The translations under genes were made by a program, and so were the position numbers. Shown here piece after piece: positions 13,923 to 51,731 of a stretch of DNA of 64,000 nt. The DNA comes from Macrobrachium rosenbergii (taxonomy: Eukaryota; Arthropoda; Malacostraca; Decapoda; Palaemonidae): positions 81,665,539 to 81,729,538 of the forward strand of contig NC_089742.1 of NCBI RefSeq assembly GCF_040412425.1. The letters are read 5' to 3'. A model generated the notes under the pieces. That model was not told the DNA's origin. It saw nothing but the letters and a program-made list of their open reading frames with translations, and did no database searches. Each line of letters starts with the position of its first letter. The first letter of the stretch is position 1.

Positions 13923-16138
13923 TTAACGCTTAAACGCCGACTGGACGTATCGTACATCGACTAAAATTGTCTGTAGGGTGCCGAGTGGACGTTAGGTATG
14001 TCGACTACAAAAAGTTTTTTAAATATTCGCGGAAAAATAGTTATAGGCCTAGTTTGCGAAAGATTTTAAATCACGCGCCTTGAGGGATGCTGGGAGTTCA
14101 CGGATCACACTGTTGTTTTGTTTACAAGCCTTACCCAGCCGCGCACGAGCGAATTTCTTTCTTCTTGCACTACAGAGCATCAGCGACGCATCTCAGAAAT
14201 TCTTTCGTCACTTTGTCGTAATTTTTGCACCGTTTTATATTAACCGTTACATAAAGTTTTATTTATGAAAATGTGCGCAATTTCATGTAGAATACAACAA
14301 AAACCAATCCATGGTTGTAGCTTTTATAAGTTTTAAAATATTTTCATATAAATCACTATAAGTGCCAAAATTTCAACCTTCGGTCAACTTTGACTCTACC
14401 GAAATGGTCGAAAAACGCAATTGAAAGCTAAAACCCTTACATTCTAGTAATAATCAATCATTTACCTTCATTTTGCAACAAATTGGAAGTCTCTAGCACA
14501 ACATTTCGATTTATGGTGAATTTTTGAAAAAAAACTTTATCCTTACGTCCGTGCGCGGTAACTCGCCCGAAAAACTCAGAAATTCTTTAGTCAATTTGTC
14601 GTAATGTTTGCATCGTTTTATATTAGCCGTTACATACAGTTTTATATATGAAAATCTGTGCAATTTCATGTAAAATACAAAAAAAAAAAACCATGGTTGT
14701 AGCTTTTATCAGTTTTGAAATATTTTCATATAAATCACGAGAAGTGCCAAAATTTCGATCTTCGGTCAACTTTGACTTGACCGAAATGGTTGAAAAACGC
14801 AATTGTAAGCTAAAACTCTTACATTCTAGTAATATTCAATCATTTACCTTCATTTTGCAACAAATTGGAAGTCTCTAGCACAATATTTCGATTTATGGTG
14901 AATTTTGAAGAAGAAGAAGAAAAAAAAAAAAAAAAAAATAATCCTTACGTCCATAAGGTAACGGTTAAAAATCTCGGAAATTCTTTCGTCACTTTGTCGT
15001 AATGTTTGCACTGTTTTATATTAGCCGTTACATAAAGTTTTATATATGAAAATTTGTGCAATTTCATGTAAAATACAACAAAAAATAACTCATGGTTGTA
15101 GCTTTTATCAGTTTTGAAATATTTTCATATAAATCATGATGTGCCAAAATTTCAACCTTCGGTCAACTTTGACTAAACCGAAATTGTCGAAAAATGCAAT
15201 TGTAAGCTAAAACTCTTACATTCTAATAACATTCAATCATTTACCTTCATTGTGCAACAAACGGGAAGTCTCTAGCTCAATATTTCGATTTATGGTGAAT
15301 TTTTAAAAAAAACTTTTTCCTTACGTCACCGCCTTGCGTAACTCTGCTGAAAATCTCTCCAATTTCTTTAGTCACCTTGTCATAATTTTTGCACCGTTTT
15401 ATATTAGGCCTTACATAAAGTGTTATACATGAAAATGTGTGCAATATCATGTAGAATACAACAAAAAATAACTCATGGTTGTAGCTTTTATCAGTTTTGA
15501 AATATTTTCATATAAATCACGATAAATAGAAAAAATTCGACCTTCGGTCAACTTTAACTCGACCGAAATGGTCGAAAACTGCAATTGTAAGCTAAAACAC
15601 TTACAGTCTAGTAATATTCAATCAATTACCTTCATTTTGCAACAAACAGGAAGTCTCTAGCACAATATTTTGATTTATGGTGAATTTTTGAAAAAAGCTT
15701 GTTTTTACGTCCGCGCGTTACGAATTCATGCATCATTTTGTGATAATATTTTCTCTGTGTTGCTTTGATCGTTTTACAATTTGTTAAACAGTATACCAGA
15801 ATCATTGCAATTTAGTGTACAATACAACGAAAAAAACAACTCATTAGCTTTAACTGTTTTGCTCACAGAGCGATTTTTAAACAATTATATATGAAAATTT
15901 TTTTGTGGTCATATATTCCAATATTTATATATGATATTTTTTTTCATTTCTGATGGTTGCATACTAAACTTCATGCAATGACAAAAAAGGAGCCAAAAAT
16001 GAACTCTTAATCTTAAAAACTAAGCGTGCTGTGATTAAAAAAAAAAAAAAAAAAATTTCCGCTTCGGCGCTAACTCCTGAATGCCGCCGGCATACGACAG
16101 ACACTTTTGTAAATAGAGGCTCAGCGTTTAAGGATTAA
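13923..16138 (-). mobile_element. Satellite-bearing piggyBac derivative, copy B
   Basis: It is flanked by TTAA at 13923-13926 and 16135-16138. It runs in reverse relative to copies A, C and D: the end with GACGTATCGTACATCG repeats is on the left, and the end with GCCGCCGGCATACGACAG is on the right. Next to the left end, 14030-14150 matches the unique subterminal part of copy A (ATAGTTATAGGCCTAGTTTG). Four ~380-400-bp satellite units follow (landmark GTCTCTAGC at 14490, 14871, 15270 and 15652). There is no transposase, so it is non-autonomous. Both outermost CCC/GGG triplets carry a substitution. Confidence 0.85.
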
Positions 16139-17690
16139 GGGGAGCGCACGCTTACATAGAAATAATGCCCTGATTTTTATGGTGATGTTCCAGAAAAAAT
16201 TTGAGAGTGATCGGATGATTATTTTGGATTTTATTGGGGGGGGAAAAAAAAAAAAAATAAATAAATAAAAATGATTCACCTCCCTCATTTTTAGAGCTAT
16301 TGTAATGTGGCTTCATACACAGAAAGTATATCATAGTATGAAAAGAATAATGGGAAGAATTTTTCTATTCCTTTTTTTTTTGGTGGGGGTGAGGGGGGAT
16401 TTTCCCCCCAAATTTGTATAATTTGATTATCACGGGTTCCTCACCAACCTAAAAAAACCTAGACCCAAACAAATATTCGTCTTTCTTTCCTCTTTCCAAT
16501 GGTATATTTAACTTTAAAATTTACCTAAAAATAAAAAAGTAGTTCGCGTTTGAAGTGCAAAAAAGTGAAAACTGAGAAAAACGACCGTAAAGGTCAACAA
16601 GTTTTTTTTTTTTGGCATTCGTGGAAAAAACTTATCTTAGAGCATTATTTTGGTTGATTTCTGGCTCCAGGTCACCCCCCTTTATAAAAAGGGGTATTAT
16701 TCGCTCGAGGCGAGGGTATCATCAAGTACCACTCAACTCATTGTTGCCTGGTTTGAAACTAAGAAACTAAAAGTTTAGTAGCTACCAGGCTGATATTCTT
16801 GACTCATTTTCAGTCGTTTTCTTCACTTGTTTGGTCTTTTGAGTTTGATTTTCAAGCCTTTTTGTCTCTCGAATGAAGAACTTCTATACTTTCACTTGTG
16901 CCAAACAGATGTGTCAGTAAGTTGAATTTCTCATAGCCAAAGCTGTGTTCAATTTCCTCAATATTTATCTCACTCAATTGATGGTGCTGAGATTTTCCAT
17001 TGCTAATTCACTTTGCTGGGGCACTAACTGTAAACCTACACAATTGGCACTTCATTAAAATATCATTATCCCATCTATTGGCGGAGACGTCGATCAGAAC
17101 TTTACCCCTGCAATTTCATACCTTGCACCTAATACCCGACACTATTTTATCTAACTGAGATTTGATATAATGAACTTGTCATCATATACTCCCTTTTCAT
17201 CATCCTTTATTCATTTCATCAACTGTGAGCGTATTTTTGAAGGTGAAAGTATATAGATTGTACTTAAGAGTTACTGGATGTGAAAAAAAAAATGGCTAAA
17301 AAACGCCGCAAATAGTGAAAAAATTGCTGAGTAAAAAGTTGCCCACCACCCGCTTTCAACGTTTGGGGGCAACCCTTTCTCCTACCACGCATTCACCAAG
17401 GAACAAGCCATTGTTGTTGCCAGATGTAGGAGATAAGGTGATATAAAAATCAAAATAATTAATAAATTAGGCAAATAAAGGAAAAAATGACAATAGTCAT
17501 TAGGAGCCAAACGTCAGCCCTACCTCACTGTGTGGGGGGCGGAGGCCCAAAACCCCATCAATTTTAATATTTCGAAAAAATGCTTTGGTCATGTGATAAC
17601 AAAGGTGTTGCTCATGTCTTACGGCCATTTAACCATTTTTTTTAAATTTCAAAAATATTCATCAAAAATCGAAGAGTGCGCTCCCCTTAA
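16135..17690. mobile_element. TTAA-flanked TIR element E
   Basis: The ends are TTAA-GGGGAGCGCACGCTT and AAGAGTGCGCTCCCC-TTAA, a 15-bp terminal inverted repeat with one mismatch. TTAA lies at 16135-16138 (shared with copy B) and 17687-17690. About 1.55 kb of AT-rich interior holds no coding frame that I recognise. The TTAA target suggests the piggyBac superfamily, but the terminal sequence differs from copies A-D. Confidence 0.75.
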
Positions 17691-18516
17691 GTTATGATGC
17701 TGTGAAGTAGTGTGTTCAGCTGCCAATAGTAAGGCCTTTCAAGCCATGGTTATGTACAAAGGTAGAGATATGCAAAAAGAAATTGGATTACAAAAAGTGA
17801 GTGTCATCCTAATGAGTTAAAACAGGTGTTCTTACCACTACTGTATTATGTAATTTGCCAAGATGTAAAGTTTTTCATATATATTGTGATGGGTCTGTTA
17901 ATGGAGTGAAGCCTGTATGTGGAGTTGTCATACAAAAATTTGGTGACAATACATTTACTGATGACATGATTTCCAAATGAATGCAGGATAATAGCTCTAC
18001 AACAACAGCTGAGTTACGTGCAACTGAATTGTAAAGATCCTTCTAATGCTGATTTGGTACACCAATGCAAGGCTTTGATTTATGAGATAGAACGAAGTGG
18101 TTTTTATGTTAAATTTTACTGTATACCTCCTCATATAGGTATATATTTAAATGAAGTTGCTGACAAATTAGCAAAAGATGCAACATGTAAAAACCTCTGT
18201 TGATGCTGTATGTTTTCATCAAATAAAGAGAGGTATGAGGCATCGGACAGCTGCGTGGGAGACTGATAATGCGGAAAAGATTTTAGTAGGCGGCAGTAAT
18301 AGCATGAGGCATTATCTGTATGTACTATCTGGAAATAACCATATTACATATGGCGAAGCTCTGTCTAAAATTGACATGTTTATAATGAGGTTAAGGTTAG
18401 GATACAAGTATTCATGGGAATATGTTGGTGATGGTAATAATTTTTTGTGCAAGTTATGTGATGAGCCCAACTCTCATACATTATGTATTACATTGTACTG
18501 TATATTGTTTTCATAA
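17691..18516 (+). pseudogene. LINE: RNase H and C-terminal domain
   Basis: This is the continuation of the LINE after the nested insertions. RNase H motifs are visible: YCDGSVNGVKPVCGVVI (about 17880) with the first Asp, TTTAELRAT (about 18000) with the Glu, and CIPPHIGIYLNEVADKLAKD (about 18120-18180) with the last Asp. A C-terminal cysteine motif, FLCKLCDEPNSHTLC, follows at about 18445-18490. Several stops and shifts are present. The junction upstream reads TTAA-GTTATGATGC, consistent with a single ancestral TTAA at the insertion site. Confidence 0.8.
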
Positions 18517-19964
18517 ATTTGTACACACTGATAAATTAATTGTTTTGGAATTCTGTTGACTCAGTGGGGTTAGACTTTACTATATTTTCTTTTTCAAAAT
18601 AATTTATTGTCCAATACAATGTTTTGAGGAATTAATTCTGATGATGTCGACTACTAAGGAACCTTCTTCTGACTGTTACTATGGAAAGATGTTTGTATGC
18701 AGCATGCAATAAATTTTTTTCATGAGTCTGAAAAGGTCAGATAATGGAACTTGTCTGGTACATAAAGTATACTTTCTGCAGCCTGCTTTACTAACATTAT
18801 AATGTGAAGATGGCGTTATCTGATGGTGTCTGTTATCATTAGTTGTTCCACTTGTGAACCAACAACATTTGGGCAAGCTGAATCCCACAGGGGGCTGTGT
18901 GCAATAAACTTGCTCAGCAACAGTAATGGTTGTGATAACCAAGTTAGCAACAGTAATGGTTGTGATCACCAAGTTAATGTTTTGTAAATCAGATGAACTT
19001 TAATTACAACTCTGTTGGAGAACAGTTGGTCAGTGTGGCAAAGGATACCAATAGTAGCAAGGACAAAAACCAGTAAGCCAGAAAATCATGAAAAGCACAG
19101 GTAAATGCCTGAAAACCATGGATATGAAGGCAGAATGTATTCAAAACATAAAATTTTATCAATGATGATTACAGTAGTGCACTTTAAGTCTTGAAATTTA
19201 ACATTGTGGTCTGGTTAAACTAATTTAAAATTAACAATAACAACCAATTCAAAAACAGTATGTATGCACAACAATGCAGCAAGCCTGCAAACTGCTATGG
19301 GTGCTCAACTGAAGGATATGCCTCCAATTTATCAAATGTAACCTAAGAGTAGAGGAATGTTTTTGTTTGCATTAAAAATCACTTGAGGATAATTTTCTTG
19401 TACATATGTTTCCTTAAATTTATCTGGTGTTACTAAAGATTATCATAGAGTTACCACATTAGAGAAATAATTCAGTGTTTTTTTTATTATTATTATTCAT
19501 TTTCACAGTAATCCAAGTACCACATTAAAACCAGCTACAAAGATAAAATGTACATATTTATATATACAAAATAAAAGATAACTCTGACCATTAAACTCAA
19601 AATATTGCTTCCTTACATGAATTTTTAAGAAAACTATATAAATAGCAATTTATTCTAATAAATTAGTTAAAAAGTTACAGATAAATGTCAGTTCAATTTA
19701 CCTGGAATAAAACTTTAATAACAATTTTAATATTGTATCTTTGGTTTCTAAAATAACAATCAATAAAAGAAATTATTTACGAACAACATAGCATTTAAGA
19801 TAAGACAGAACAATTTAAATGGAAAATCATAAAGACTAATAGTGCCAACAGTTAGGATTCCAATTTCATTTCATTTACAAACAAATCCTAGTTACCGGCA
19901 TTTCTACAGCTAACCGCAAGAAATGTGCATGAACGGTAAGTTCATACATATTTACCTTATACAA
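18517..19964. other. 3' flank of ATAD5; no other gene seen
   Basis: AT-rich sequence between the LINE and the ATAD5 stop codon. It contains a 27-bp tandem repeat (acagtaatggttgtgatMACC AAGTTagca type) at about 18918-18978. No repeat family is recognised otherwise. Part of it should be the ATAD5 3' UTR, because that gene runs leftwards. Confidence 0.5.
19649..19654 (-). promoter_or_regulatory. Candidate polyadenylation signal AATAAA
   Basis: A minus-strand AATAAA lies about 310 bp past the ATAD5 stop. Another is at 19483-19488. Such hexamers are frequent by chance in this AT-rich DNA, so this is only positional evidence. Confidence 0.25.
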
Positions 19965-20211
19965 CTATGGACATAATGAATTTGCTAATTTAATCTTGTC
20001 TCCTCCAGATAAATCAATGCCATAATGGGAGGCCTGGCTTAAATATCTTCTTCCCCTTCTTGATTTACAAAGCACAGCAGTAAGTTCATCGTGGCGAACG
20101 ACACTTCTCATAAAGCAAAGGTAATCCATGAAACCTTTCCGATTAAGCTGATGCACAAGTGGCACTTGGTTAAGCAATCGCTCATCAATTTTTTCATATT
20201 CTTTTAGGCTC
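19965..20211 (-). CDS. ATAD5: ATAD5/Elg1, terminal coding exon
   Basis: The exon begins after a strong acceptor (polypyrimidine then CAG at 20212-20214 on the minus strand) and ends with TAG at 19965-19967. It encodes the end of the protein: SLKEYEKIDERLLNQVPLVH, MDYLCFMRSVVRHDE, then KSRRGRRYLSQASHYGIDLS and the last residues KLANSLCP. As I recall the vertebrate C-terminus, it has the same layout: a DYLPTLRTICR-like block, then a basic RRFLHYL stretch, then an ending near LAADFP. The first base completes a codon started in the exon ending at 25162 (AG|G, Arg), so the frames join exactly. ATAD5 replaces RFC1 in a clamp-loader-like complex that removes PCNA from DNA after replication. The role of this last segment is less well defined than the AAA core. 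Confidence 0.85.
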
Positions 20212-21017
20212 CTGAAAAATAATAAAAAAAACAAATAGTAATTCTCACTATAAATTGAAGATAAATAATTTCTCATAACTGCATACCAAATCCTATCTTG
20301 AGCAAACATTTTTCAACTGTCCAGTCAGTCTTCATTCAGCAAAAACTATGATCAGTCCTTGAGTTATGATTGTTTGCTATGTGATATTATATTATGAATT
20401 TACAATGGCAATACAGTTGGCCTCCACCTATTTGCAGTTCAATATTCGAGGATTCACCTATTCGTGGATTTTTCTGTGGAACATAACTCAAATTATTTGC
20501 GGAAAATTCGCCTATTCATGGATTTTTTCATAGAGCATATCTAAATTTTATGCTAATTCTTTTTATTTTATTTTTGTGACTAAATACATTTTTTATAAAA
20601 AAAAAAAAATGATTTACTAATTTTCAAATATTAATATTAATGTAAACAGCAAAATAACGTAAAAGTATTTTTTCTTATAAAAACGTTTGCCAAACGATGC
20701 GCAAATTCCAAACACAAAGCTCTCGGGAAAGAAAATGCAGCTTGGAAAGCTGAAATACCTAGGTGCAATGCTACTTGACACACTATTGGCTGGGGTTTGC
20801 AAAGAGGCCAATCCAAGAGCACCATTCATTTTCCTTGGTGCTGAGTGGCTGTACCCCCAAGACTTTGTCTCGTAGAGATGTGTTGCAAGAGCCCACATCT
20901 CTGCCAGTTCACTGCATAAACCTCTGCTGTTCGAGTGTTTCACCGTGTTTCTGTGTACTTTGTGTATCTTTGTGTCTCATTTTTAATCTTTGTGTAGATT
21001 TTTAATCGTGCCCTAAG

Positions 21018-22730
21018 ATGCCTCCTAAACGTTATGCTCCTTCTAAGCCTTCTGGAAAAGAGCCTAAGCACCAGATGAAGGTCATGATGCTCCAGAAGGT
21101 AGCACTTCTGGAACTGTTGAAGGAACGGAAAAGTTATACAGTACCATGTGTGATAAGAGCATCATGAGGATGGAGTCGGCATTAGCTGGTGTGGATATCA
21201 GAGTGCTGTAAGAACATCCCCTCTATGGCAACATCATCTGCAAGAAGAGATGAAAACTCTACCAGCAGTTTTAGACTGTTACAGAAGGCAGCGGCATGCA
21301 GGAAGCAGGCTTCTTAGGCTTCGACAACCCTGCCGAAGAAGAAGAGGAAGAAGCAGGACCATCATCAGCTCCTAAAGGTTTTCAGACCAGCAAGGAGAAA
21401 TTCTACGGTTTCCAGAAGTGGTTCCACCTGAAGCGTGTTTCTCTGCACGGGGAAATGGGATCGGCAGACACGGAGGCAGCCACCAAGTATCCTGAGACCT
21501 TCAAGAAAATCATCAGGGACAAGAGCTACTGTCCAGAACAGGTGTTCAATATGGATGAGACGAGCTTGTTCTGGAAGAAAATGGCTTCACAGACATACTT
21601 CATGATGGACGAAGCCAGAACCCCTGGGTTTAAGGCCCAGAAGGACAGGGTTACCCTCATCATGTGTGGGAATGCAGCTGGCTTCATGCTGAAACTAGGC
21701 CTCATTTACAAGGCTGTACACCCCAGGGCCCTCAAGAATAAGAACAAGAACTTGCTGCCTCTGTTTTGGATGCACAACCCCAAGGCCTGGATTACTAAAG
21801 TCCTTACGTCTAACTGGTTCATTCAGAGCTTCATCCCTCAAGTTAAGGATTACCTCAACAACTTGTGCATGGAGTTTGGGGTGCTGTTGATTATGGCTAA
21901 TGCTGGTGGCCACCCTCTGGATCTTTATTATGAGGGGGTCCAGCTCCAGTTCCTCCCTGCCAACACCACCTCTCTCCTCCAGCCTATGGACCAAGGCATG
22001 GTCCATGCCTTCAAGGCACTCTACACCTAGAACTCCCTCAAGCACCTTGTGAAGGCAACGGACAATGACAGTGAATTTATGCTGAAGGAGTATTGGCATA
22101 AATTCACGATTGCTGCTTCTGACTGTCATCAGCCAATTGTTGAAGGATATGAAGGAGACCCTTAATGCGTGCTGGAAGAAGTTGTGGCCAGAGTGTGTTC
22201 ATGATTATATGGGCTTCTCTCCTGAAGAAATTCAACATTCGGCCATTGATAAGGCAGTCCAATTGGCAAGGATGCTCAGTGGAGAAGGCTTCGATGACAT
22301 CACCAAGGACTAAGTCAGCACCCTCATTGATGCCCACTCTGGCCTCCTGATGGACCAGATTTGGAAGAGCTGACGAAGCCTGCCAGTGAGGAAGAAGACA
22401 CGGCAGGTTAAGGGGACAAGGAGGAGGATGAAGGCCTGTCTCTGGAACATCTGTCCCGAATTATGAGGGGAGCCAGGGAATTGCAGGAGATTACTAGGGC
22501 ATGGGATCCTTATATGGAACGCTCCATCAAGTTTTCAAATGTCCTTGATGCATGGATGGGGCCCTACAATAACCTCCTCGTCAGCACGAAAGAGGCAGCA
22601 ACAGCAGCTGCCTATCACCATATTTCTTGAGCCCATAAAGGCTCCAAAGCTTCCCCAAGCCCCTGAAGAAGTGCAACTGGTGGACGAAATGTCTAAAGAA
22701 GGGGAAAAGGCACCCCCACAGGAGATGTAA
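21018..22730 (+). pseudogene. Tigger-type transposase B, broken
   Basis: It starts MPPKRYAPSKPSGKE at 21018, is frameshifted near 21080 and 21210, then is open from 21296 to 22030. Core motifs are QVFNMDETSLFWKKM (first Asp intact, about 21540), KAQKDRVTLIMCGNAAG, LLIMANAGGHPLDL (about 21885) and SLLQPMDQGM (third Asp intact, about 21975). In the second motif the usual LDNAPGHP reads MANAGGHP, so the second catalytic Asp is lost. A stop at 22030 precedes a further decayed C-terminal region (FSPEEIQHSAIDKAVQLARM near 22220) that ends near 22730. Tigger transposases normally run about 500-600 residues with a DDD core, so this copy is inactive. The reverse frames over it are shadows. Confidence 0.85.
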
Positions 22731-24024: not shown

Positions 24025-25161
24025 AAGCAAGAGTACATATTCAGCAGAAATTGTATTCTGAATTTTGATTTGAGATGCAGGGTACGATATTCTTTGTGAA
24101 CAGCACACAGTCAGGCAGTGGCAGCATTCCTCTTTTTCCAAGCAAGCCAAGTGGTTGCTAGTGTATGCTCCCCATATTATGTACTGTTCTGTTGCTACTA
24201 CTTTTTTTTTTTTTACACCCTTCTGCATCCACACTGTATTTTTAAGCATCCATCATGTTTATGAAACATCTATCTGTCTCCTTCTACTGGTAAGAAGGGG
24301 AAGGCAATAACTATTGAGGAGAAAACTTAGGACGATTGGCAAGCATGATGGCAACATACCTGTAATGTACATCAGTGTCTGTCAAGCAAAACTTACTTTC
24401 ACAATTGATGATCTTGTTATTTTTATATTACTGTAATACTTTAGATTATAACATTTTTCTACACAATAAACTATCATCTTAACACATAAACGTTTCTACT
24501 TTCGTCAGAACCAGTCAGGAACAACAAGATTAAAATCATTTTTACAGTCACTTTTGCCTTTCACATTCATCACATAAATGCACAGCTTATATTCATATAT
24601 ACACTCCTTTTTATATACAGCAGCATTTCTTTTAAGAATCTTACTTTATAGCCTCTGTATGTATGTTAGTCATTAATAAATTTAAATTCATTCCTAAATA
24701 AAAGAAACAATGTTTTACTTCCTACAATTTGTCAACGACACTGACAAAAAATCATGTATAACTAAATGGTATTTTACAAATAAATATTACCAAATAGATA
24801 ATTATTACAATGTGTATGCTACCAAGAACGATGAATGCATTAATAGTGCATGTACACAATTGTCATTTCTTTGGGTACAAAAAATTTTTTTCTATTATTC
24901 CAAATATTCTTGTTATTAAATTTTTGTTAACAAAAGATATACAGTATGTGCTTTATTTATTACATCTTTATGTTACCAAATGTAAAAACTGGCATTATCT
25001 TTCATTTTGGGAAATAAATGTTTTTTATCAGTGCTTGAATTTCAATATATCCATGATAAAATTGACTTTTTGAGTCTTATGTAGATAATAGGACAGATCA
25101 AGTATTATTTTACACAGAAAGGAAAATTAAATTTGAGTATCTTAAATACAAACAACATTAC
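24025..25161. other. ATAD5 intron, right part; nothing recognised
   Basis: AT-rich intron sequence between Tigger B and the exon at 25162. No transposon end, RNA gene or coding frame is supported. Confidence 0.5.
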
Positions 25162-25976
25162 CTTTCATATGCATTTAGCTGTGATTCTAGAAGAGCTGGT
25201 TTTTCATTTTCTTGAACTGGAAGAGAAACTTGGCTCCAATCTGTTGTTGGCATATCTTCAAGGTATTTTTTAGACTCGTAATAACACTGTTGGAAAGCCC
25301 GATGTCCAATCTCTTCAACAATATGAGGAGTAAGTGTACATAGTCCCCAGTGTTTATAATGTCTTTCTAAGTCACTTAAACCTGGTGTGGGGTGCCTCTT
25401 CCACCAGTCACTATAACTGTTATCTTTACCAGGTTGTGCTAATCGATAGTGAGAATCCAATACATCAAGCTCACTTACAGTATTATAAAACCTGGCAATC
25501 GATGCTACACATTTTTCAGAGGAGTCTATTACATACTGAGGTGCCTGAATATTTTCTTCTGGTTCTTTATCTCCTTCCGTCTCCACAACAGGTGGTGGTG
25601 AAGATTCATCCTCATCTTCATCAATACTTAGCCAGTTATATTTTTGCCAAAGGTATGTTGTTCTTAAAGAGGGATCATCAGCCTGCAGTGGGTATTTTTT
25701 GGTTATCTTCTTTTCGTTTAAGGTATATGGTAAGAAAAATGGCAAACTTTTTGCAGTCTGAGTCCAGGTTACTGACTGTGAATCTTTGGTCATGATCCTT
25801 AAGTTCACTGATATATCAGTTTGCTTGTGTTTTTCCAAATCTGCAATATACCTAGAATGCACTTTACCCCATAATTTTTTCCGGTATGTTTCTACGATTT
25901 TTGATTTGGTGTCAATTTTTTCTGAAAAAATGTCACATAATGAAACTGCTTCCAAAATCACGTCTTCCTTACTTCC
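25162..25976 (-). CDS. ATAD5: ATAD5/Elg1, large penultimate exon (C-terminal region)
   Basis: The 815-bp exon is bounded by an acceptor (TTTCAG) at 25977 and a GTAATG donor at 25161. It opens in frame as GSKEDVILEAVSLCDIFSEK and carries an acidic linker (SIDEDEDESSPPPVVETEGD), then a helical C-terminal region with VASIARFYNTVSELDVLDSH, SDWWKRHPTPGLSDLERHY and VEEIGHRAFQQCYYESKKYL. The piece FYNTVSELDVLDSH corresponds to the conserved 'fy..is.LD.lD' segment of the ATAD5 C-terminal domain that follows the AAA core. Upstream the frame joins the exon at 41360 in phase 0, and downstream it joins the terminal exon through a split Arg codon. The 153-codon frame on the opposite strand is a shadow. 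Confidence 0.88.
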
Positions 25977-27128
25977 CTGAAAAAAATAAAAAATAAAAAA
26001 GATTAAGCTCCTTTTATTTTACTCATACTAAGTAAGTACAGTACATTTATAAATATATAGCATTTCATGTAATTCTCAAGAATAATTAGGCAAAACGATA
26101 TAAAAAGCAAAAGCAAAGTAGACATTTCCAATGCTTCCATCCTAAAAATTAAAACCATAATCTTAATCCCAAGTTTATCTATCAACTTTGTTACATCCAT
26201 TACACCATATATGACATTACGGAGTACGTGTTTACAAACCTGAAGACTTGTTACTGTTTGTACAGAGGGGTTAAACTTACATATATACTATATACTTTAC
26301 ATATACAATACTTTACTTTATATATATACTATAGTAGTACCAATCTAAGGTGAGGGTTTGGCGTGTCTAAAAATTTTTAGATGAAAACAAAGGTGCCATA
26401 TCTTTGTTCTTTGTAGAGGTGGCCAAAGTCAAAGCTCTGTATTCCTTACTAATCCCCCATTTTTCTGGGAAACATTACCCTAAGGTCAAAACCTATGTCC
26501 AGTACAGATTATCCTCCTTTCAGACTGGGTGAGGGGGAATGCCCACTCCAATTGTCTTAGAAGGGTTCGCTGGTATAAGTTTATTTTTCCTTTATTCAGA
26601 TAAATATTTATCATATGGTGTGTATTGGTATTAAAATTCAGAGTTATGAAACAGTTCTTTTTATTTTAACTTATTTATCAACAATCTACAAAAGAGACAA
26701 AACTAAAGGGAAATCACGGATATGGTAAATTTCATACATTAAACATTTCTTTATTTTCAGAAGCATTCAAGTAATAAATACAGTATATCTAATAAATAAG
26801 AATGATAATGATTCACTTTATTTCAGTTTGTGATCATATACATGTACAATGGTTTACAATGAGAACAATACAGAACAGCGTATAAAGACGAGAGATTTTA
26901 AGAGGACTCCTCATCGGAAGACTCCTCATCTGAAGAGTCAAGACTTATAATAAATGAGTCAATATATTTGTCTATCAAAATATCTTTTGCTGCATCTTCC
27001 ACTTGCAATTGCTCGGATTTGTCTTACGGCCTTCTCCCAATTTTTCAGGTGTCACAGTATCCAGAGCTTCTTTAGTAAGTTCGATAGATTTGTCATCTTA
27101 AAATTGTTTCTTTTAATCATATGAAACT
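25977..27128. other. ATAD5 intron, left part before the IS630-type pseudogene
   Basis: No gene is seen. The acidic and Ser-rich minus-strand trace near 26890-26940 may be the tail of the adjacent transposase or chance sequence. Confidence 0.4.
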
Positions 27129-36921: not shown

Positions 36922-39885
36922 TGTAAGAGCCCGACACCGTCTCTTCCAAACACGACTGCACCGCACCCTCCGCCTGAGCAGTCGTCTCCGCAGCCGGGCC
37001 GATTAATCAGACGTTACCCACATCTTGGGGGAGATTATTTGTAAGAGCCCGACACCATCTCTTCCAAACATGTGTGTGTTCGTGCGTTCGTCAATCGTCA
37101 TCCATCGGAGTGAACAAGACAAAACAAGAGCATCTCGTTTTCTTTCTCTAACGGAACGCGACTTCAACCATACAATATTTCCGTCTGTTTCTCCCTAACC
37201 ATTGTTGTCTTGATTTATGTACAATCACCGCTACTTGCACTGCCATGCACTCATAATGTTCCACCGAATCTTCTGTATCAAACTGTATGTATGTTTCTGT
37301 TTGTGAAGACGACAAACGTCTCGCCATTTCACATATATTATGCTACTGCATTGTATTCATTAATCTGTCTGGAATCTCATGCAATTGGCCATATGTAGAA
37401 TTTCCTGGCCTTTCCATTGATATATGTTTCATCACTGTATGTTAATCCTGTCTCTCAATATCGCCATATGTTTCTCTGCTGACAAACACTGATGCCCGAA
37501 TCTGTACCTCTGTTTTTACCTGTCTGTGTGTAGACGCTACTTTACCGCTCGCACGCGTCAATAACAGCTTCGAAGATTCTGTACATTTATCTCAGTAAGG
37601 AACTACCAATAAACCAGTTAACCCTCTGACGCCGAGCCTCTATTTACAAAAGTGTCTCCCGTATGCCGGCGGCGTTCGGGAGTTAGCCCCGAAGCGGAAA
37701 AAAAGTTTTTTTCAAAAAATCACAGCACGCTTAGTTTTTAAGATTAAGAGTTAATTTTGGTTCCTTTTTTTTTTGTCATTGCCTGAAGTTTAGTATGCAA
37801 CCATCAGAAATGAAAAAAATATTATCATATATAAATATTGAAATATATGACTGCAAAAAAAAAATTTCATATATAATTGTATACAAATAGCGCTAAGCAA
37901 AACGGTTAAAGCTAACACGTTATTTTTTTTCTTTGTATTGTACACTAAATTGCAATGATTTTGGTATATAACAAATTGTAAAACGATCAAAGCAACACAG
38001 AAAATATTATCACAAAATAATGCATGAATTAAATAGCATACGGACGTAAAAAAGTTTTTAAAAATTCACCATAAATCGAAATATTGTGCTAGAGACTTCC
38101 CGTTTGTTGCAAAATGAAGCTAATTGATTGAATATTACTAGACTGTAAGTGTTTTAGCTTACAATTGCAGTTTTCGACCATTTCGGTCGAGTTAAAGTTG
38201 ACCGAAAGTAGAATTTGTTCTATTTATCGTAATTTATATGAAAATATTTCAAAACTGATAAAAGGTACAACCATGAGTTATTTTTTTTTGTATTCTACAT
38301 GAAATTGCACACATTTTCATATATAAAACTTTATGTAACGACTAATATAAAACGGTGCAAACATTACGACAAAGTGACGAAAGAATTTCTGAGATGTTCG
38401 GCAGAGTTACCGCGCAGACGTAAGGAAAATGTTTTTTTCAAAAATTCACCATAAATCAAATTCACCATAAATCGAAATATTGTGCTAGAGACTTCCAGTT
38501 TGTTGCAAATGAAGGTACATGATTGAATATTACTAGGTTGTAAGAGTTTTAGTTTACAATTGCATTTTTCGATCATTTCCGTCGAGTTAAAGTTGACCGA
38601 AGGTTGAAATTTTGGCACTTATCATGATTTATATGAAAATTTTTCAAAACTGATAAAAGATACAACCATGAGTTATTTTCCGTTGTATTCTACATGAAAT
38701 TGTGCACATTTTCATATATAAAACTTTATGTAACGACTAATATAAAACAGTGCAAACATTATGACAAAGTGACGAAAGAATTTCAGAGATGTTCGCAGTT
38801 ACGGTTTTGTGGGCGTAAGGAAAAAAATTTTTTTTCTTTTTAAATTCACCATAAATCGAAATATTGTGCTAGAGACTTCCAGTATGTTGCAAAATGAATG
38901 TACATGATTGAATATTACTAGAATGTAAGACTTTCAGCTTACAATTGCGTTTTTCGACCATTTCAGTCGAGTTAAAGTTGGCCGAAGGTTGATATTTTGG
39001 CACTTACGTTGATTTATATGGAAATATTTCAAAACTGATAAAAGCTACAACCGTGATTTATTATCTGTTGTATTCTACATGAAATTGCGCACATTTCCAT
39101 ATATAAAACTTTATGTAATGACTAATATAAACCGGTGCAAATATTACGACAAGGTAACAAAAGAATTTCCGAGACGTTCGGCAGAGTTACCATGCGCAGA
39201 CGTAAGGGAAAAGTTTTTTCAAAAATTCACCATAAATCGAAATATTGTGCTAGAGACTTCCAATTTGTTCCAAAATGAAGGTATATGACTGAATATTATT
39301 AGAATGTAAGAGTTTTAGTTTACAATTGCATTTTTCTACCACTTCGGTCGAGTTAAAGTTGACCAAAGGTTGAAATTTTGGCACTTATCGTGATTTATAT
39401 GGAAATATTTCAAAACTGATAGAAGCTACAACCATAAGTTATTTTCTATTGTATTCTGCATGACATTGCGCACATTTCCATATATAAAACTTTATGTAAC
39501 GACTAATATAAACCGGTGCAAACATTACGACAAAATGACCAAAGAATTTCTGAAATTTTCAGCCGAGTTACCGCGCGGACATAAGGAAAAAGTTTTTTTC
39601 AAAAATTCACCATAAATCGAAATATTGTGGTAGAGACTTCCAATTTGTTGCAAAATTAAGGTAAATGATTGAATATTACTAGAATGTAAGAGTTTTAGCC
39701 TACAATTGCGTTTTTCGACCATTTCGGTTGAGTCAAAGTTGACTGAAGGTTGAAATTTTTTGTAGTCGACGTACGGTACGTCCACTCGGCACCCAACAGA
39801 CAATTTTAGTCGACGTATGATACGTCCAGTCAGCGTTTAAGGGTTAACAACCAGCCAGTATGTCACTCAATCTCCAGTCCTTACA
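36922..39885 (+). mobile_element. LTR retrotransposon remnant with piggyBac derivative inside
   Basis: It is flanked by CTAC at 36918-36921 and 39886-39889. It starts with a 5' LTR fragment (TGTAAGAGCCCGACACC, 36922 to about 36954) and a short internal remnant ending in a purine-rich TTGGGGGAGATTATT. A second LTR follows from 37040, beginning TGTAAGAGCCCGACACC and ending CAGTCCTTACA at 39885, so the LTR termini are TGTAAG...CTTACA. This LTR contains AATAAA (about 37608) and is interrupted by copy C at 37618-39847. Without the insert it is about 620 bp. No gag or pol remains. The sister locus at 57250 lacks the element. Confidence 0.75.
37618..39847 (+). mobile_element. Satellite-bearing piggyBac derivative, copy C
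   Basis: TTAA lies at 37618-37621 and 39844-39847. The left end is CCCTCTGACGCCGAGCCTC and the right end is CCAGTCAGCGTTTAAGGG. Five satellite units are seen (landmark at 38089, 38483, 38869, 39249 and 39629; spacing 394, 386, 380 and 380). The right subterminal direct repeats TAGTCGACGTACGGTACGTC and TAGTCGACGTATGATACGTC are present. No transposase. It is inserted in an LTR. Confidence 0.9.

Positions 39886-43305: not shown

Positions 43306-43382
<77 letters not shown>
43022..43382. repeat. Tandem duplication with (GA)n at each junction
   Basis: A ~105-bp unit containing GCTGTTGTGTAAGCCTAG and TTTAGCAATGGAGAG occurs twice (about 43039-43143 and 43203-43307). It is bounded by GA tracts at 43022-43038, 43144-43201 and 43308-43382. 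The tracts differ in length. Glu-Arg and Ser-Leu open frames here are artefacts of the repeat. Confidence 0.9.
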
Positions 43383-43385
<3 letters not shown>

Positions 43386-43885
43386 ATGACAACGTTAAGA
43401 AACATCAAGTTACTTGTGTTTTCCCGCCAAAGTTATCGCGGTACTCCGCACATCATAGAGAACGCTCTTGCGGATTTAAATAGACTGGGTCAACCTGCCC
43501 TAGCTGTCACAACATTTACTGCCATTAATTCCAGCTGACCTTTAACACCGTGAAATACAAATATGAATCTGTTAAAATTAAGGAAATTATCATTACCTCA
43601 TATGATGATGCAATAATAAGCCTGTTCATGACGGAAAACGAGTAAATATTGCCGTTCTGATAAACAGTACTACACCGAGATATCCACACACTATCTTTTA
43701 GATCTCTATGAACGAAGTCATCTGAGAAATTCTGATTACTTCGGACATGCATGGGGTTTTTAAGTATCTGAACGTTTTTGTTTTGCAGATTTAACATATA
43801 TGATATAATTTGCATTGTATTTTCATATTCTAGAGCAAATTTACCGAGATTATGTGTTTTCTGTAAGAAAAAAATTAAAATTCGA

Positions 43886-44199
<314 letters not shown>

Positions 44200-44200
<1 letters not shown>

Positions 44201-45212
44201 GTAAACCAAGCAAAGCAAAAAGGGAAAATGGCAAACATGATACTGCACTAAGAAACACACACACACAAACGCAAACACTACGTACTGTAGAAACGGTAAC
44301 ATCAACATTGATTAAATGCCACACGTAGATGTAAACACACACACACAGGCATACAAGTAATTCATATACCCACATTTCTATTTCTGTTTTTTTTGTTACC
44401 ATCACAACTAGAGCATGTGGTTTATATTTACATTATTTTTCACAAAGAAAATTATGTTTTCATTATGAATTTTTATTGTACTGTCAATTTTATAGATGTA
44501 AATTAATTAAAATTGTTTTTATTGTAGTTAATGTTATTGTAATGTGATTTATTGTATTACTATTGTTTTGGATGACATATATCCGTCTGCACACTGTAAT
44601 AAAACAACATGATGCTATGTTCACATAATAGACTTTGTAGAGGTCACAACGAGTGATGGAAGGCCCTACAGCATACAACACTAACACAAGATATAACCAT
44701 AAAAATGGCAACAACACCTTTTAAATCATGTGCTTTCTAAACCCCCTTTCCACTTCTATCCCTGTAATCCGTATACCTGTTTTTTATTTCTGTTTTGTTT
44801 GTTGCCATCACAACCAGAACACGTGATTTATTTTTTCATTATTTTTCACAAAGAAAATTGTTTTCATTATGAATTTTTTTTGCAGTCACTTTTTATATTT
44901 GCAAATTTATTAAAATTGTTTTTACTGTACTTAATGTTATTGTAATTATTTATTGTATTATTGTTTTGGGGGCTACATATCCATCCACACGCTGTAATAA
45001 AACACCAAGAAGCTACGTTCAGATAATACACCTTGAAGAGGTCACGACAAGTGATGGAACAGCTGTGGTGTTGTATTCCCAGCAAATGGAACAGAGTTAA
45101 TCTTTGTTTTTGTACCCATCAACTAAATTTGGAAGAATATAGAAGATTCAGAAAATATTGTCAAACTAATAAGTTGATCAACAATCAAAAATCTGTAGAA
45201 TTCAAAGAAATC

Positions 45213-45216
<4 letters not shown>
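44200..45216. repeat. Diverged ~330-bp direct repeat pair
   Basis: Blocks such as TCACAAAGAAAATTATGTTT and TTATTGTATTACTATTGTTT at 44440-44660 recur in diverged form at 44840-45070 (with AACACCAAGAAGCTACGTTC against AACAACATGATGCTATGTTC). No coding region is seen. Confidence 0.6.

Positions 45217-45273
<57 letters not shown>
45217..45273. repeat. (AT)n microsatellite
   Basis: About 57 bp of AT. Confidence 0.95.
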
Positions 45274-45277
<4 letters not shown>

Positions 45278-45307
45278 CAATACTGTATACAGTATATATA
45301 CACACAG

Positions 45308-45657
45308 GCAGTCTCCTGTTTACGACGGGTCCGGCTTATGACGTTCTGAGGTTACAATGTTTTTCCAATATATTCATCAGAAATTATTTCCTGGTTTACG
45401 ACACAAGTTCTGGGGTTACCTACTCACCAGTGGCATCGGTTAACGGCGTTTTGGCTTTATGACGCTTGGCTAACGACATTGTTAACCAGATTTTCAGTGC
45501 AGATAACCCGTTAACGGTGCCTTTCAGCAGTTTATTGGCACTTTTGTCGCTGTTAAATGCCATTTTTTATCATAACTATTGTGAAGTTCTGGTTAAAGAC
45601 AATTTTTGGTTATTGACACTTCGTCGTGAACAGAACCCTTGCCATTAACCGGGGACA
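45308..45657. mobile_element. MITE with GTTTACGAC-type ends
   Basis: The left end is CAGTCTCCTGTTTACGACGG and the right end is CCCTTGCCATTAACCGGGGAC, an imperfect inverse. The interior has many TTAACGGC/GACACT blocks and no coding frame. Boundaries are approximate. Confidence 0.5.
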
Positions 45658-45693
45658 AACATACATGCATAAAAAATAAAATTTTCTCTTATC

Positions 45694-45698
<5 letters not shown>

Positions 45699-45740
<42 letters not shown>
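45699..45740. repeat. (GA)n microsatellite
   Basis: About 42 bp of GA, upstream of the GATTAGAGATGAAACATCAA dispersed unit. Confidence 0.95.
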
Positions 45741-45742
<2 letters not shown>

Positions 45743-46117
45743 TGAAGTGTTTATACATCGAAGCACAGTATGTAACTTGCTGGGGATGAGACTATGGTTG
45801 GGAGAAGAATGTTGAGTGTTGCCTATGTACGAAATTCGGATTTTAAATATTTTTACGGTGATTAGAGATGAAACATCAACAATGATAAAATATGCTCTTG
45901 TGTACTGTTATAATATGTGTGATAATCATAGTCAACTAAACTTGTAATGAAATACGGTACAATAAATCAAAGAGAAAAATATGGCAACATTACCTCCCTC
46001 ATCTGTCGTGAACTTGTTGGATTTTATTGGTGATTAGATCAATACAATATAAATGGATTCTGTAAGTGAAATAATGTGTTAAAGATATTTTGCAGTGTTT
46101 TCTCATTAAAGTATATG

Positions 46118-46120
<3 letters not shown>

Positions 46121-46191
<71 letters not shown>
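46121..46191. repeat. (GA)n microsatellite
   Basis: About 70 bp of GA. Confidence 0.95.
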
Positions 46192-46569
46192 ACAAAATTT
46201 TTTTAATAAATTTATGGGAGATGGTGAGGACTACCCACAAAAAGACATAAACCAAGAACTTACTGTAGTAAATTTTTTTTTTTTTTTTAATCATAAATGT
46301 ACTTGTACATAATCATGAAATAACTAACATGACATAACAAACCTAGCATTCTGTTTGGAGGTGCGTGTTCCGTTATTCTAAACTACCCAGTTATTTTAGA
46401 TATGTTCTATACAGTAGTACCATTCTAAGATACGTACCTGTACAGTAAATATCACTTCAAAATCATCGTACAACATAGGAAAATATCAATGTACGTAAAA
46501 TGTACACAAGTGCATTACAGTATGCACAGAACGATGTGTAAAGTTAGGCAGGTCAAAGAAAACGTGTGT

Positions 46570-47521
46570 CTGAATGATAGGGGATACTTAAGAGTAACAG
46601 TTGTAGGCTGGTACTTGAAATGATATTAGGGTGTTCTGGGATGATAGTTTGAGGTATATTTTTGTTTGAACTGTCAAGTTTGGCAATGAACTGTTAAAAT
46701 AGGCAGTTATAAGCATTTTAGGGGTTATATAGCCTACTTAAAGAGTAACAGTAGTAGGAGAATACTGTAATGTAAGGCTACTTTGGGTGTTTTGGGATGA
46801 TGGGTTGGGGTGTATTTTTTGTTTGAAATATCAAATTAAGCAATAAAATGTTAAAATTGGCAATTATAAGCATTTTAGTGGTATATAGCTTACTTAAGAG
46901 TAATAGTGGTAGAAGAGTCCTGTAATGCAAGGTTACTTTGGGTGTTTTGGGATGATGGGTTGGGGTGTATTTTTGTTTGAAATAATATTAAATTGTTTTA
47001 GCGTGATAATTTAAGTTATATTTTTGTTTGAAATATCAAATTATGCAGTGAAATTTAAAATATGCAGTTATAAGCATTTCAGTTTAAGGGGTACAGTGTG
47101 TCCTCGACTTAAAGCGCGGGATCTGTTCCAGCACTGCGCTGAAAGTTGATTTCCACCATAAGTCGATTTTTCGCTCCTGTATCAGCACTTTAGGTGCTGC
47201 AACTTGAGTTATGGCATCATTACTTGATGTTGCATCAAGTTACAGTGCTGTAAGCGCCATCAACTTGTTCCCTATTCTTGCCATAAATGCCAACAACGGT
47301 GTTTTTGGCGCCATAACTTGATGCACCATCAAGTTACGGGACTAAAACATCATTATGGTGCTGAAAGAGCCCCGTAAGATCGAATCGTTGGAAGTTGAGG
47401 ATGCACTAAGGTATTTGGCAGTTTTAAGAATTTTTTAGAGGGGATTTTTGAATTTCCATGGGTTTTACATTTCCGTGGTAGGTTCTGGAACCTAACCCCG
47501 CTTAAAAAATGGGGAGCACTG
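46570..47521. mobile_element. 3' remnant of a Tigger-type element with internal ~155-bp repeats
   Basis: Three tandem units begin near 46593, 46744 and 46898 (AGAGTAACAGT, then GGTGTTTTGGGATGAT and GCAATTATAAGCATTTTAG). The right end is ATGGGGAGCACTG (47521) followed by TA. The unit is related to 23840-23940 in Tigger B, and the right end is related to the element at 63796. A MITE is nested at 47094. The left boundary is unknown. Confidence 0.6.
47094..47406. mobile_element. MITE with CAGTGTGTCCTCGACTT ends
   Basis: The left end CAGTGTGTCCTCGACTT follows TA at 47092-47093. The inverted right end is AAGTTGAGGATGCAC, then TA. The comparable region at 63890 reads GGGGTACAAGGTATTTGGC on the opposite strand, which is an empty-site version. 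Confidence 0.75.
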
Positions 47522-48100
47522 TACCTACATAGTAATGTAATGTTATGTACTATCATTATTTCAATCTTTTTACCATAATGTACATCTACTGATATATTTC
47601 AATCATTTATATAATGTATATTATGTGTAGGTAGGCACTGAGTTACTATATATATATATGTATATATATATATACACAGTATATGAATTTTTATCACATC
47701 ACCAGGATTTTATATACACAAACATTAAGCTACAAATGTCATTTAATATTCAATTCGCTCTACCTCAGAAATAACACTGAAGGGGAAATATAACTGATAG
47801 TTGGTTCTTCACTCCACAGGATCGAACTGCCAAACTCCACAGGATCGAACCGCCAAACAATGATAAAAAATGACTTTCAGTAACACCCTACACCACTTAG
47901 CTATCAAGCAAGTCTAGGGTGTCACTGAATGTCATTGGTTCTCATTTTACAGTAGTTTGATCCTGTGAGGTGACAAATCACTTATCAATTATAATACCGC
48001 TTTGGTATTATTTCTGAGGTAGAGTGAAGTGGATGTTAAACAACATTGGCGCTTAATGTGTGTGTGTATATATATAAACACACACCCATACATATATATA
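47522..48100. other. Unassigned spacer with short inverted repeats
   Basis: Around 47790-48010, TCAGAAATAACAC and AGGATCGAACTGCCAAA are mirrored by TTTGATCCTG and GGTATTATTTCTGA, giving a loose ~230-bp palindrome. No coding region is seen. Confidence 0.4.
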
Positions 48101-48527
48101 GATGCCCCTCTACTTACGAACGAGTGACATTCCAAATGGTTGTTCGTAAGTTTATTTTGTTCGTAAGTTCAACTTCATATACCCAAGGTCAATACGTACA
48201 GTGCTATTTATGTTTTTTCATATTAAAACCAAATACTAGTACTGTTACTGTATTTTATAGAGTATTTTATTAATACAAATGATATACAAGACCTAACAAA
48301 CATATGATAATACAGTAAATGTAAAGTACATGTACAGCTTTCTTACTTTTGAAACTGGTGTCGCAGGCTTGTCATGATGGATGATATGGGGGGGCAGTGT
48401 GGATTAAGAGAGGGTGGCGGGTCGTCAACGTCTTTTTCATTCTCACCTTATTTGGGAAGGATTTCTTCATCACTTTCCTCTTCATTTGGGGAGGAAGCAA
48501 TCATTGGAGGTGAGGAGGCTCTTGAGA

Positions 48528-49541
48528 TTAAAGGCACTGGTTTTCAGGAATGTCTATGGAAATTTGCACTGTTTTTCTTTTCTTTTCATCGTCTAAGATA
48601 CGATAACACTGAAAAGGATCAATGAGAATTGTTGCTACTTTTGAGAATCTCTCTACATTGGGGTCCTGATTCTCAAAAATACTCAACACTTTTTCTAGAA
48701 GAGAAAACCCCTTGGCTATCAATTTTGTTTCAAACCTCTTTATGGGAACAAGTTGTTGTTGTTGTTCTTCATGTTCTTCTGGTTTTTGCCATTCTTCCAG
48801 TTCAATAAAATCCTGACTTGTCAACTCCTCTGAGTGACTGTCAAACAGCTCTTGAAGGTCCTCTTCCCTATGTCAAGGTTTAACTTTTCAATTACGTCAA
48901 TGAGACTCTTAATAATTCCCTTTTCCTCATCTTCTTGATTAAATCACCTGAAGTCATTTACAAACTGTGGGCATAAAGCCTTCCATATTCATTCATGTTG
49001 ATGCCATTTACTTCACACCATTCAGCACCATGTTCTTTACATAATTGTAAATGTTGTAACCCTTCCAGAAGTCACATAAGGTCACATCTGCATCATTTAT
49101 CTTCTTTAATGCTTGTCTATATGTATAGCTGGTATAGTATTTTTTGAAATTTGTTATTACGCCCTGATCTATTGGCTGAATGACTAAGTTGTGTTAAGTG
49201 GTAAATAAACAACTTGAACATCCAGATGGAAATCATCTAAGTGTGGTGGGTGGCCAGGGGCATTGTCCAAAATTACAAGAATCTTAACTGGAATGTTATT
49301 CTCTCTCCAGTACAGCTTGACTTCAGGGATAAAGTGATGGAAAAACCAGTCCACAAATACAGCAAGAGTCGCCCAGGCTTTCTTATTGGCCATACAGATT
49401 ACGGGTAGAGAACTTTTTGTGATATTTTTCAGTGCCCGACACACAAGGAGAGGTTTCAGCTTCATATCTCCCAAACAATTGCCACCCAGCAGTAGCGTTA
49501 GCCTATCCTTTGCTGCCTTAAATCCTGGCATCATCCTCTCT
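48528..49541 (-). pseudogene. Tigger-type transposase D, C-terminal part
   Basis: It continues the frame from 51732 after the insertion with ERMMPGFKAAKDRLTLLLGG, then NKKAWATLAVFVDWFFHHF and ILVILDNAPGHPPHLDDF (second Asp intact). A one-base shift follows near LPLNTT, and in another frame LVIQPIDQGVITNFKK (third Asp intact) is readable near 49170. Frameshifted sequence follows, then a Glu/Gln-rich C-terminal frame (48824-48528) ending in a stop. The catalytic residues survive better than in transposases A and B, so this is probably a younger copy. Confidence 0.85.
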
Positions 49542-51731
49542 TTAACCCTTTAACGCCGAAGCCCTATTTTCAAAAACGTCTCCCGTATGCCGGCGGCGTT
49601 CGGTGAGTTAGCGGCGAAGCGGAAATTTTTTTTTTTTTTTTTTTCAAAAATCACAGCACGCTTAGTTTTTAAGATTAAGAGTTCATTTTTGGCTCATTTT
49701 TTTGTCATTGCCTGAAGTTTAGTATGCAACCATCAGAAATGAAAAAATATCATTATCATATATAAATATTGGAATATATGACAGCGAGAAAAAAAAACTT
49801 GTATATAATTGTATACAAATCGCTGTAAGCAAAACGGTTAAAGCTAATGAGTTAATTTTTTTAGTTGTATTGTACACTAAATTACGATGATTTTGGTATA
49901 TAACAAATTTTAAAACGATCAAAGCAAACAGAGAAAATATTATCACAAAATGATGCATGAATTAAACGCAGCTGGACGTAAAAAATCTTTTTCAAAATTC
50001 ACCATAAATCGAAATATTGTGCTAGAGACTTCCCGTTTGTTGAAAAATGAAGCTAATTGATTGAATATTACTAGACTGGAAGTGTTTTAGCTTACAATTG
50101 CAGTTTTTTAAACCATTTCGGTCGAGTTAAAGTTGACCAAAGGTCGAATTTTTCTATTTATCGTGATTTATATGGAAATATTTCAAAACTGATAAAAGCT
50201 ACAACCATGAGTTATTTTTGTTGTATTGTACATGAAATTGCGCACATTTTCATATATAAAACTTTATGTAACGACTAATATAAAGCGGTGCAAATATTAC
50301 GACAACGAGACGAAAGAATTTCGAGATGTTCGCCGAGTTACAGCGCAGACGTAAGGAAAATGTTTTTAAAAAATTCACCATAAATCGAAATATTGTGCTA
50401 GAGACTTCCAATTTATTGCAAAATGAAGTTAAACGATTGAATATTACTAGAATGTAAGAGTTTTAGCTTACAATTGCGTTTTTACCATTTCGGTCGAGTT
50501 AAAGTTGACCGAAGGTTGAAATTTTGGCAGTTATCGTGATTTATGTGAAAATATTTCAAAACTGATAAAAGCTACAACCATGAGCTATTTTCTGTTGTAT
50601 TCTACATGAAATTGCACACATTTTCATATATAAAAGTTTATGTAACGACTAATGTAAAACGATGCAAACATTACGAAACCATGACGAAAGAATTTCTGAG
50701 ATGTTCGGCCGAGTTATAGCGCAGAGCGTAAGGAAAAAATTTTTTTTTCAGAAATTCACCATAAATCAAAATATTGTGCTAGAGACTTCCAGTTTGTTGC
50801 AAAATGAAGGTACATGATTGAATATTACTAGAATGTAAGAGTTTTAGCTTATAATTGCGTTTTTTTACCATTTCGGTAGAGTTAAAGTTGACCGAAGCTT
50901 GAAATTTTGGCAGTTATCGTGATTTATGTGAAAATATTTCAAAACTGATAAAAGCTACAACCATGAGTTATTTTCTGTTGTATTCTACATGAAATTGCGC
51001 ACATTTCCATATATAAAACTTTATGTAACGACTAATATAAAACAGTGCAAACATTACGACAACGTGACGAAAGAATTTCTGGCGCGGACGTAAGGAAAAA
51101 GTTTTTTTCAAAAATTCACCAAAAATCGATATTGTGCTAGAGACTTCCAATTGGTTGCAAAATGAAGGTAAATGATTGAATATTACTAGATCGTAAGAGT
51201 TTTAGCTTAAAATTGCATTTTTGACCATTTCGGTCGAGTCAAAGTTGACCGAAGGTTGAAATTTTGGCAGTTATCGTGGTTTATATGAAAATATTTCCAA
51301 ACTGATAAAAGCTACAACCATGGGTTGTATTTTTCTGTATTGTACATGAAATTGCGCACATTTTCATATATAAAACTTTATGTAACGGCTAATATAGAAC
51401 AATGCAAAAATTACGACAAAATGACGAAAAGAATTTATGAAATTTTCGGCTGAGTTACCGCCGTGCGTAAGAAAAAGTTTTTTAAAAAAATTCACCATAA
51501 ATCGAAATATTGTGCTAGAGACTTCCAATTTGTTTCAAAATGAAGGTACATGATTGAATATTACTAGAATGTAAGAGCTTTAGCTTACAATTGCGTTTTT
51601 CGACCATTTGGTCGAAGTCAAAGTTGACCGAAGGTTGAAATTTTTGTAGTCGACGACGTGCACGTCCACTTGGCACCCAACAGACAATTTTAGTTGACGT
51701 ATGATACGTCCAATAGGCGTTTAAGGGTTAA
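49542..51731 (+). mobile_element. Satellite-bearing piggyBac derivative, copy D
   Basis: TTAA lies at 49542-49545 and 51728-51731. The ends are CCCTTTAACGCCGAAGCCC and CCAATAGGCGTTTAAGGG. There are five satellite units (landmark at about 50021, 50397, 50779, 51137 and 51514; spacing 376, 382, 358 and 377), preceded by the ~400-bp left arm also present in copies B and C. The right subterminal repeats are present though the first is disturbed (AGTCGACGACGTGCACGTCC). No transposase. It is inserted in transposase D. Confidence 0.92.

Follow-up and report, generated by a model that had tools for sequence, protein, structure and literature searches.

How satellite DNA is born is an open question, for which transposons with internal arrays provide one leading model. 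The question is raised here by a 64,000-nucleotide stretch of the genome of the decapod Macrobrachium rosenbergii, called the window below (G000:C2:81665539-81729538 of a 3.18-Gb, 78-contig assembly), in which four copies of a piggyBac-like transposon family, A to D, hold tandem units of the same ~380-bp sequence. Has this family captured or grown a satellite, and does it spread it? The reading that we favour, with a probability of about 85%, is that a piggyBac family holds the array in both its transposase-bearing and its small members, that transposition moves the array as a block, and that array length changes through duplication and loss of blocks of units.

The original prediction described three small copies, B, C and D, with common ends and TTAA on both sides, and their coordinates, ends and flanks proved exact. 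The ends are closely similar, forming short inverted ends around the array, and B lies in inverted orientation relative to C and D:

13923..16138, minus strand: copy B, small member of 2216 bp, TTAA at both ends (end and flank comparison)
14189..15696, minus strand: array of copy B, 3 full units plus 344 bp (TRF and unit boundaries)
13923..14188, minus strand: right end of copy B, 266 bp, 83% identity to that of copy A (alignment)
37618..39847, plus strand: copy C, small member of 2230 bp, TTAA at both ends (end and flank comparison)
38053..39763, plus strand: array of copy C, 4 full units plus ~171 bp (TRF and unit boundaries)
49542..51731, plus strand: copy D, small member of 2190 bp, TTAA at both ends (end and flank comparison)
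49986..51647, plus strand: array of copy D, 4 full units plus ~169 bp (TRF and unit boundaries)

The 4, 5 and 5 units of ~380 bp that had been read in B, C and D are, when counted by boundaries, 3 full units plus 344 bp in B and 4 full units plus ~170 bp in C and D, and TRF gives a period of 381-385 with 3.9-4.5 copies in all three. The left end measures 435-444 bp throughout, and the right end ~84 bp in C and D versus 266 bp in B. Small copies accordingly come as a B type and a C/D type, which differ in the junction of the last unit with the right end. Every small copy checked contains the array (B, C, D, L002-L008 and L056-L061). These copies are otherwise MITE-like but, at ~2.2 kb or more, are made too long by the array to pass for MITEs, which are short non-coding elements of a few hundred base pairs. 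The best-kept copies carry CCCTTAAACGCCGA at both ends, the ends of the window copies being imperfect. In the available text of one account, the ends of the piggyBac superfamily are defined as terminal inverted repeats of 12-19 bp with CC[C/T]T (PMC2872659), and the family has such ends.

Copy D preserves a record of its own arrival, since it splits another transposase gene:

48528..52155, minus strand: pieces of a DDE_1 transposase gene flanking D, the target that D interrupts (frame reconstruction, Pfam)

When D and one TTAA are removed in silico, an open stretch of 152 amino acids runs across the joint and aligns to a DDE_1 paralogue at window positions 21275-22030 with no gap at the joint. 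Because the split frame is rejoined in this way, D is a clean insertion with TTAA duplication. We take the split gene to be Tigger/jerky-like. The DDE_1 transposase at 21275-22030 is itself a remnant of another mobile element, as is a reverse transcriptase (RVT_1) remnant at 12837-13265. Two minus-strand open stretches, at 25158-26018 and 57877-58185, presumably resemble exons of an ATAD5-type gene; neither had a Pfam match.

Copy A had been predicted to share its right end and its units with B-D, which it does, its right end being 83-87% identical to theirs. Of the extent assigned to it, positions 1 to 3975, the right boundary holds, with TTAA, but the left boundary is the window edge. The whole element measures 5169 bp (G000:C2:81664345-81669513) with TTAA at both ends; its left end falls outside the window by 1194 bp, and its full array comprises 4 full units and a ~110-bp piece. 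The parts inside the window are:

1..3975, plus strand: copy A, transposase-bearing, cut by the left edge of the window (end and flank comparison, outward extension)
1..895, plus strand: part of the copy A array inside the window, its last 2 full units and a part-unit of ~110-117 bp (unit boundaries)
1100..3710, minus strand: decayed piggyBac transposase region of copy A, from about 3710 to 1100 (homology to loci with PF13843 open frames)
3711..3975, plus strand: right end of copy A with TTAA (alignment)

The decayed piggyBac transposase ascribed to A is confirmed through its relatives. Ten translated pieces of it gave no Pfam match above the cut-off, but the region is homologous to locus L017, where a 673-codon open stretch gives E 4.8e-64 with DDE_Tnp_1_7 (PF13843) and, in the PDB, E 9.6e-62 with piggyBat. 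Loci L029 and L025 match PF13843 at E 1.1e-57 and 1.6e-46, and it is through these three open relatives that the family has the DDE_Tnp_1_7 transposase of the piggyBac superfamily. The nearest protein to the family's transposase, from Macrobrachium nipponense, is 85% identical over 88% of its length.

We used the transposase region (window 1300-3700) as a query, which gave 1083 candidates, of which 40 were scored and 30 loci, A's own included, were cut out. Units lie to the left of the transposase in 26 of these 30 loci, so the array is not the mark of small members that it had been taken for, and 21 of the 26 have a last unit that breaks off at position 109-112. The other four loci (L015, L016, L033 and L038) have no unit within about 1.3 kb of the transposase; at L016 the array lies beyond reach because the AT microsatellite there is so long. 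In copy A an AT microsatellite occupies window positions 907-1030, between the last part-unit and the transposase. We extended 17 transposase copies outwards, A and 16 loci all chosen from the 26 with units, so that the presence of units in 17/17 follows from the choice. Both ends with TTAA were found in 13 of the 17, which are 4504-6034 bp long and have 2-5 full units each, some of them degenerate. L019, whose left end is truncated, has 6, and across transposase-bearing copies the number of full units runs from 1 to 6.

That 26 of the 30 transposase loci have units, 21 of them with a fixed junction, might indicate that the array is useful to the element, as an enhancer, a terminator or a platform for transposase binding, and is kept by selection; a role in transcription is suggested for the repeats of the Daphnia element Pokey in the available text of its description (PMC3849761). 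We regard this as possible but doubtful. The number of full units varies from 1 to 8, and small copies keep the array although they have no gene to regulate. We also considered the units as repeats of terminal binding motifs and rejected the idea: of the 8-mers that are frequent in right ends, AAATCACG alone is frequent in units as well (57% of 96), and the units therefore do not repeat terminal motifs.

A second transposase lineage is represented by copy E, upstream of A (L102:1835-3001, L039:1-1155). This element of 3921 bp (G000:C2:81659734-81663654) has TTAA at both ends, finishes 690 bp before the left end of A, and contains one full unit and a ~110-bp piece in the sequence read, which excludes the middle, 81660901-81662499. 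In its 5' part, the transposase of E shares 74% identity with A's. A search with E's transposase piece found 39 other relatives among the 40 scored of 1057 candidates, 15 of the 39 at 84-87% over the whole length, and none of the 40 listed places is shared with the list from the A-lineage search.

The small members resemble E more than A. B-type right ends are 93% identical to that of E versus 82% to those of A's lineage, and in a right-end tree E groups with the small elements with split support of 100/100; the tree takes in B-type copies and leaves out the C/D type because its right end is too short. Units of small elements are 88% identical to E's unit versus 80% to units of A's lineage. 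The left ends of B and C are also nearer to E, whereas that of D is 89% identical to E and 90% to A's lineage. Because the right-end, unit and B/C left-end identities favour E, B-D are most likely deletion derivatives of E's lineage that arose by gene loss, an assignment least sure for D. The original prediction depended on B-D sharing their ends with transposase-bearing members, and the ends are the same. The array is present in the transposase-bearing members as well, and the small members therefore have it by inheritance.

We then asked how far the units are dispersed inside elements. Within the window, no unit match was found outside A-D. First looks through the assembly gave 8696 candidates for query B, 7077 for the array of C, 1146 for one unit, and 1083 and 1057 for the transposases of A's and E's lineages, numbers that are not copy numbers because only 40 were scored per search. 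One unit of D recurs at 98-99% identity in 39 other scored loci of its 1146 candidates, on many contigs. Ten of these 39 were inspected, and all ten have both ends with TTAA, in ten different flank pairs. Of ten inspected among the 40 scored loci of the C-array search, nine have both ends and one lacks a recognizable left end; the nine have TTAA on both sides in six cases, CTAG on both sides in one and, in the remaining two, TTAA altered by a single base on one side. Taken together, of 20 loci chosen solely for their unit or array sequence, 19 show both ends of the element, and 16 are flanked by TTAA left and right. Seven further B-like copies have TTAA on both sides in four cases. One copy, L092 and L093, has CTAG rather than TTAA on both sides, and L007 is flanked by CTAG and CCAG, one on each side.

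The TTAA target-site duplication of the piggyBac superfamily is therefore found at B, C and D, at 13 of 17 transposase copies, at 16 of 20 internally picked loci and at the empty site of D. That transposition spreads short arrays has good support. That most units might lack TTAA-flanked ends, which would tell against the prediction, is not the case in this sample of loci, picked by similarity. Such picking biases the sample to young, similar copies, and old or free arrays may therefore be missed.

The arrays themselves change in length, from 1 to 8 full units, and some show growth by recent block duplication. The array of L056 comprises 8 full units and a partial one, and its units 2-3-4 are each 98% identical to units 5-6-7; in L061 the identity of units 2-3 to units 4-5 is 98 and 97%, and unit 2 of the transposase copy L010 is 98% identical to unit 3. 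Six longer or odd arrays were fetched, of which L057, L059 and L061 have both ends with TTAA. The left ends of L056 and L060 are partly unmatched, the right end of L060 is worn, and the left end of L058 lies outside the fetched sequence. L058:433-2389 is a composite whose array has a right-end piece between its units, as might result from recombination between two elements or arrays. The longest array found, of 8.4 units, is inside an element, and a search with the L056 array found nothing longer than about 2.3 kb besides L056 itself among the 40 scored of 6982 candidates.

The prediction left it open whether the array was captured or had grown, and our comparisons favour growth over capture because the array starts, within the left end, as a diverged part-unit. 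Unit positions 197-357 have a counterpart in the final ~155 bp of that end. In a shuffle test, 7 of 12 pairs scored above the highest of 200 shuffles for this segment, versus 1 of 12 for the remainder of the left end; against A's unit, every pair fell short. A diverged part-unit is present in the left end of both lineages. The subterminal DNA at the left of the element itself is therefore the probable source from which the monomer grew, a view that sequence comparison in part supports.

On the alternative, a transposon would have picked up a pre-existing genomic satellite, pieces of which are now carried along. A worn edge unit of such a captured array would give the same picture at the left end, and capture has precedents in the available texts: a review reports that the authors on miDNA4 of Xenopus propose capture of an existing tandem repeat (PMC12628747), and the repeats of Pokey derive from the rDNA spacer (PMC3849761). 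Rfam detected no RNA gene in the window at the gathering threshold, the rDNA spacer itself being absent from Rfam. We consider capture unlikely, given the confinement of all window unit matches to A-D, the element ends at 19 of 20 unit- or array-picked loci, the lack of any array above 8.4 units among the 40 scored of 6982 candidates and the part-unit shared by the left ends of both lineages.

Growth within the element could be the first stage of something larger, in which a monomer from the left end, amplified to 2-6 units in transposase copies and 4-8 in small ones, is sown genome-wide and has by now given rise to long arrays in parts of the genome that sampling or assembly has missed. We think it rather improbable that the family has gone so far. 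The prediction that the transposon spreads satellite seeds is borne out in that the array has moved as a block to TTAA sites, but not for the founding of long satellites, the longest array found having 8.4 units.

The register of the units indicates how arrays descend. In small elements, same-index units of different elements are 91.2% identical (180 pairs) versus 89.2% for different-index units within one element (60 pairs), a contrast that is favoured by the choice of these copies by similarity. Units of D and L059 match in register at 97, 97, 99, 93 and 97%, and units within D are 89-95% alike to one another; the D unit found at 98-99% elsewhere is only 90-94% identical to its neighbours in D. 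With the array of C as query, whole arrays of small elements match in register at 90-94% across dispersed loci. In transposase-bearing copies, where the index was counted from the transposase side, the contrast is reversed, with 91.6% within elements (21 pairs) versus 89.0% between same-index units of different elements (422 pairs). In these copies, therefore, homogenisation inside elements, or a wrong or lost register, outweighs descent by position. That the arrays arose independently, each after its insertion, or that their similarity is an assembly effect, with the element spreading no arrays, is hardly credible: block duplications do change arrays within single loci, and units of a single transposase-bearing copy resemble one another more than their same-index counterparts in other copies, but the in-register identity and the recurrence of the D unit in 39 loci lead us to reject it for the small elements.

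The favoured reading, of an array carried by both member types, would then work as follows. A tandem array of the ~380-bp monomer, seen between the left end and the 3' end of the transposase gene, would probably have grown out of left subterminal DNA. Small copies have the same ends and the array but no transposase, and would have lost the gene by internal deletion; the family transposase, acting on the shared ends, would move them. The array goes along as a block to new TTAA sites, as the TTAA-flanked, in-register copies show, and duplication or loss of unit blocks, probably by unequal exchange, changes its length.

Transposons with internal satellites are already known. A close parallel is Pokey and mPok of Daphnia, as described in the available text (PMC3849761). 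Like the present family, this is a crustacean piggyBac with a TTAA target. Insertion in 28S genes is characteristic of Pokey. Transposase-bearing Pokey copies have 2-5 copies of a ~200-bp repeat in the non-coding region between end and transposase, as the array here lies beside the gene, and mPok, small deletion derivatives, keep the Pokey ends, as the small copies here keep theirs. However, the Pokey repeats, of rDNA spacer origin, lie upstream of the gene, whereas here the array is on the 3' side of the gene and has no known outside source. Furthermore, mPok lacks the repeats, whereas the small copies here keep and extend the array.

The other cases are again taken from the parts of the sources available. 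Xmix/Xstir of Xenopus are TTAA elements in which, as here, an internal segment was amplified into tandem repeats that ride on the element (PMC12628747, PMC2872659, PMC6004289). Xmix has been placed in the T2 family, presumably Kolobok (PMC6004289), and also termed a piggyBac-MITE (PMC2872659); both are described as small elements, whereas here there are transposase-bearing copies too. The Xenopus element miDNA4 is a small DNA transposon whose satellite motif is present singly or as an array, as here, and growth inside the element is a proposed route to satellites, but it belongs to Tc1/mariner rather than the piggyBac superfamily (PMC12628747, PMC9659126). Cg_HINE of the oyster likewise carries dispersed short arrays, mostly of up to 5 monomers and at longest 29; unlike the present family, these are non-autonomous Helentrons that move by a rolling circle without target-site duplication, with monomers mostly of 140-180 bp (PMC7492417). 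The word piggyBac does not occur in the available part of a crayfish satellitome paper (PMC13130569), and the matches listed in our literature search include no piggyBac family whose transposase-bearing and small copies share one array.

In this family, arrays of one unit, of many units and freshly duplicated in blocks stand side by side in a chromosome-scale assembly. Because these stages occur together, and the same array is present in both member types, its origin, growth and spread can be counted and dated. The family would also give piggyBac a case in which, unlike in Pokey, an array survives and lengthens in small derivatives.
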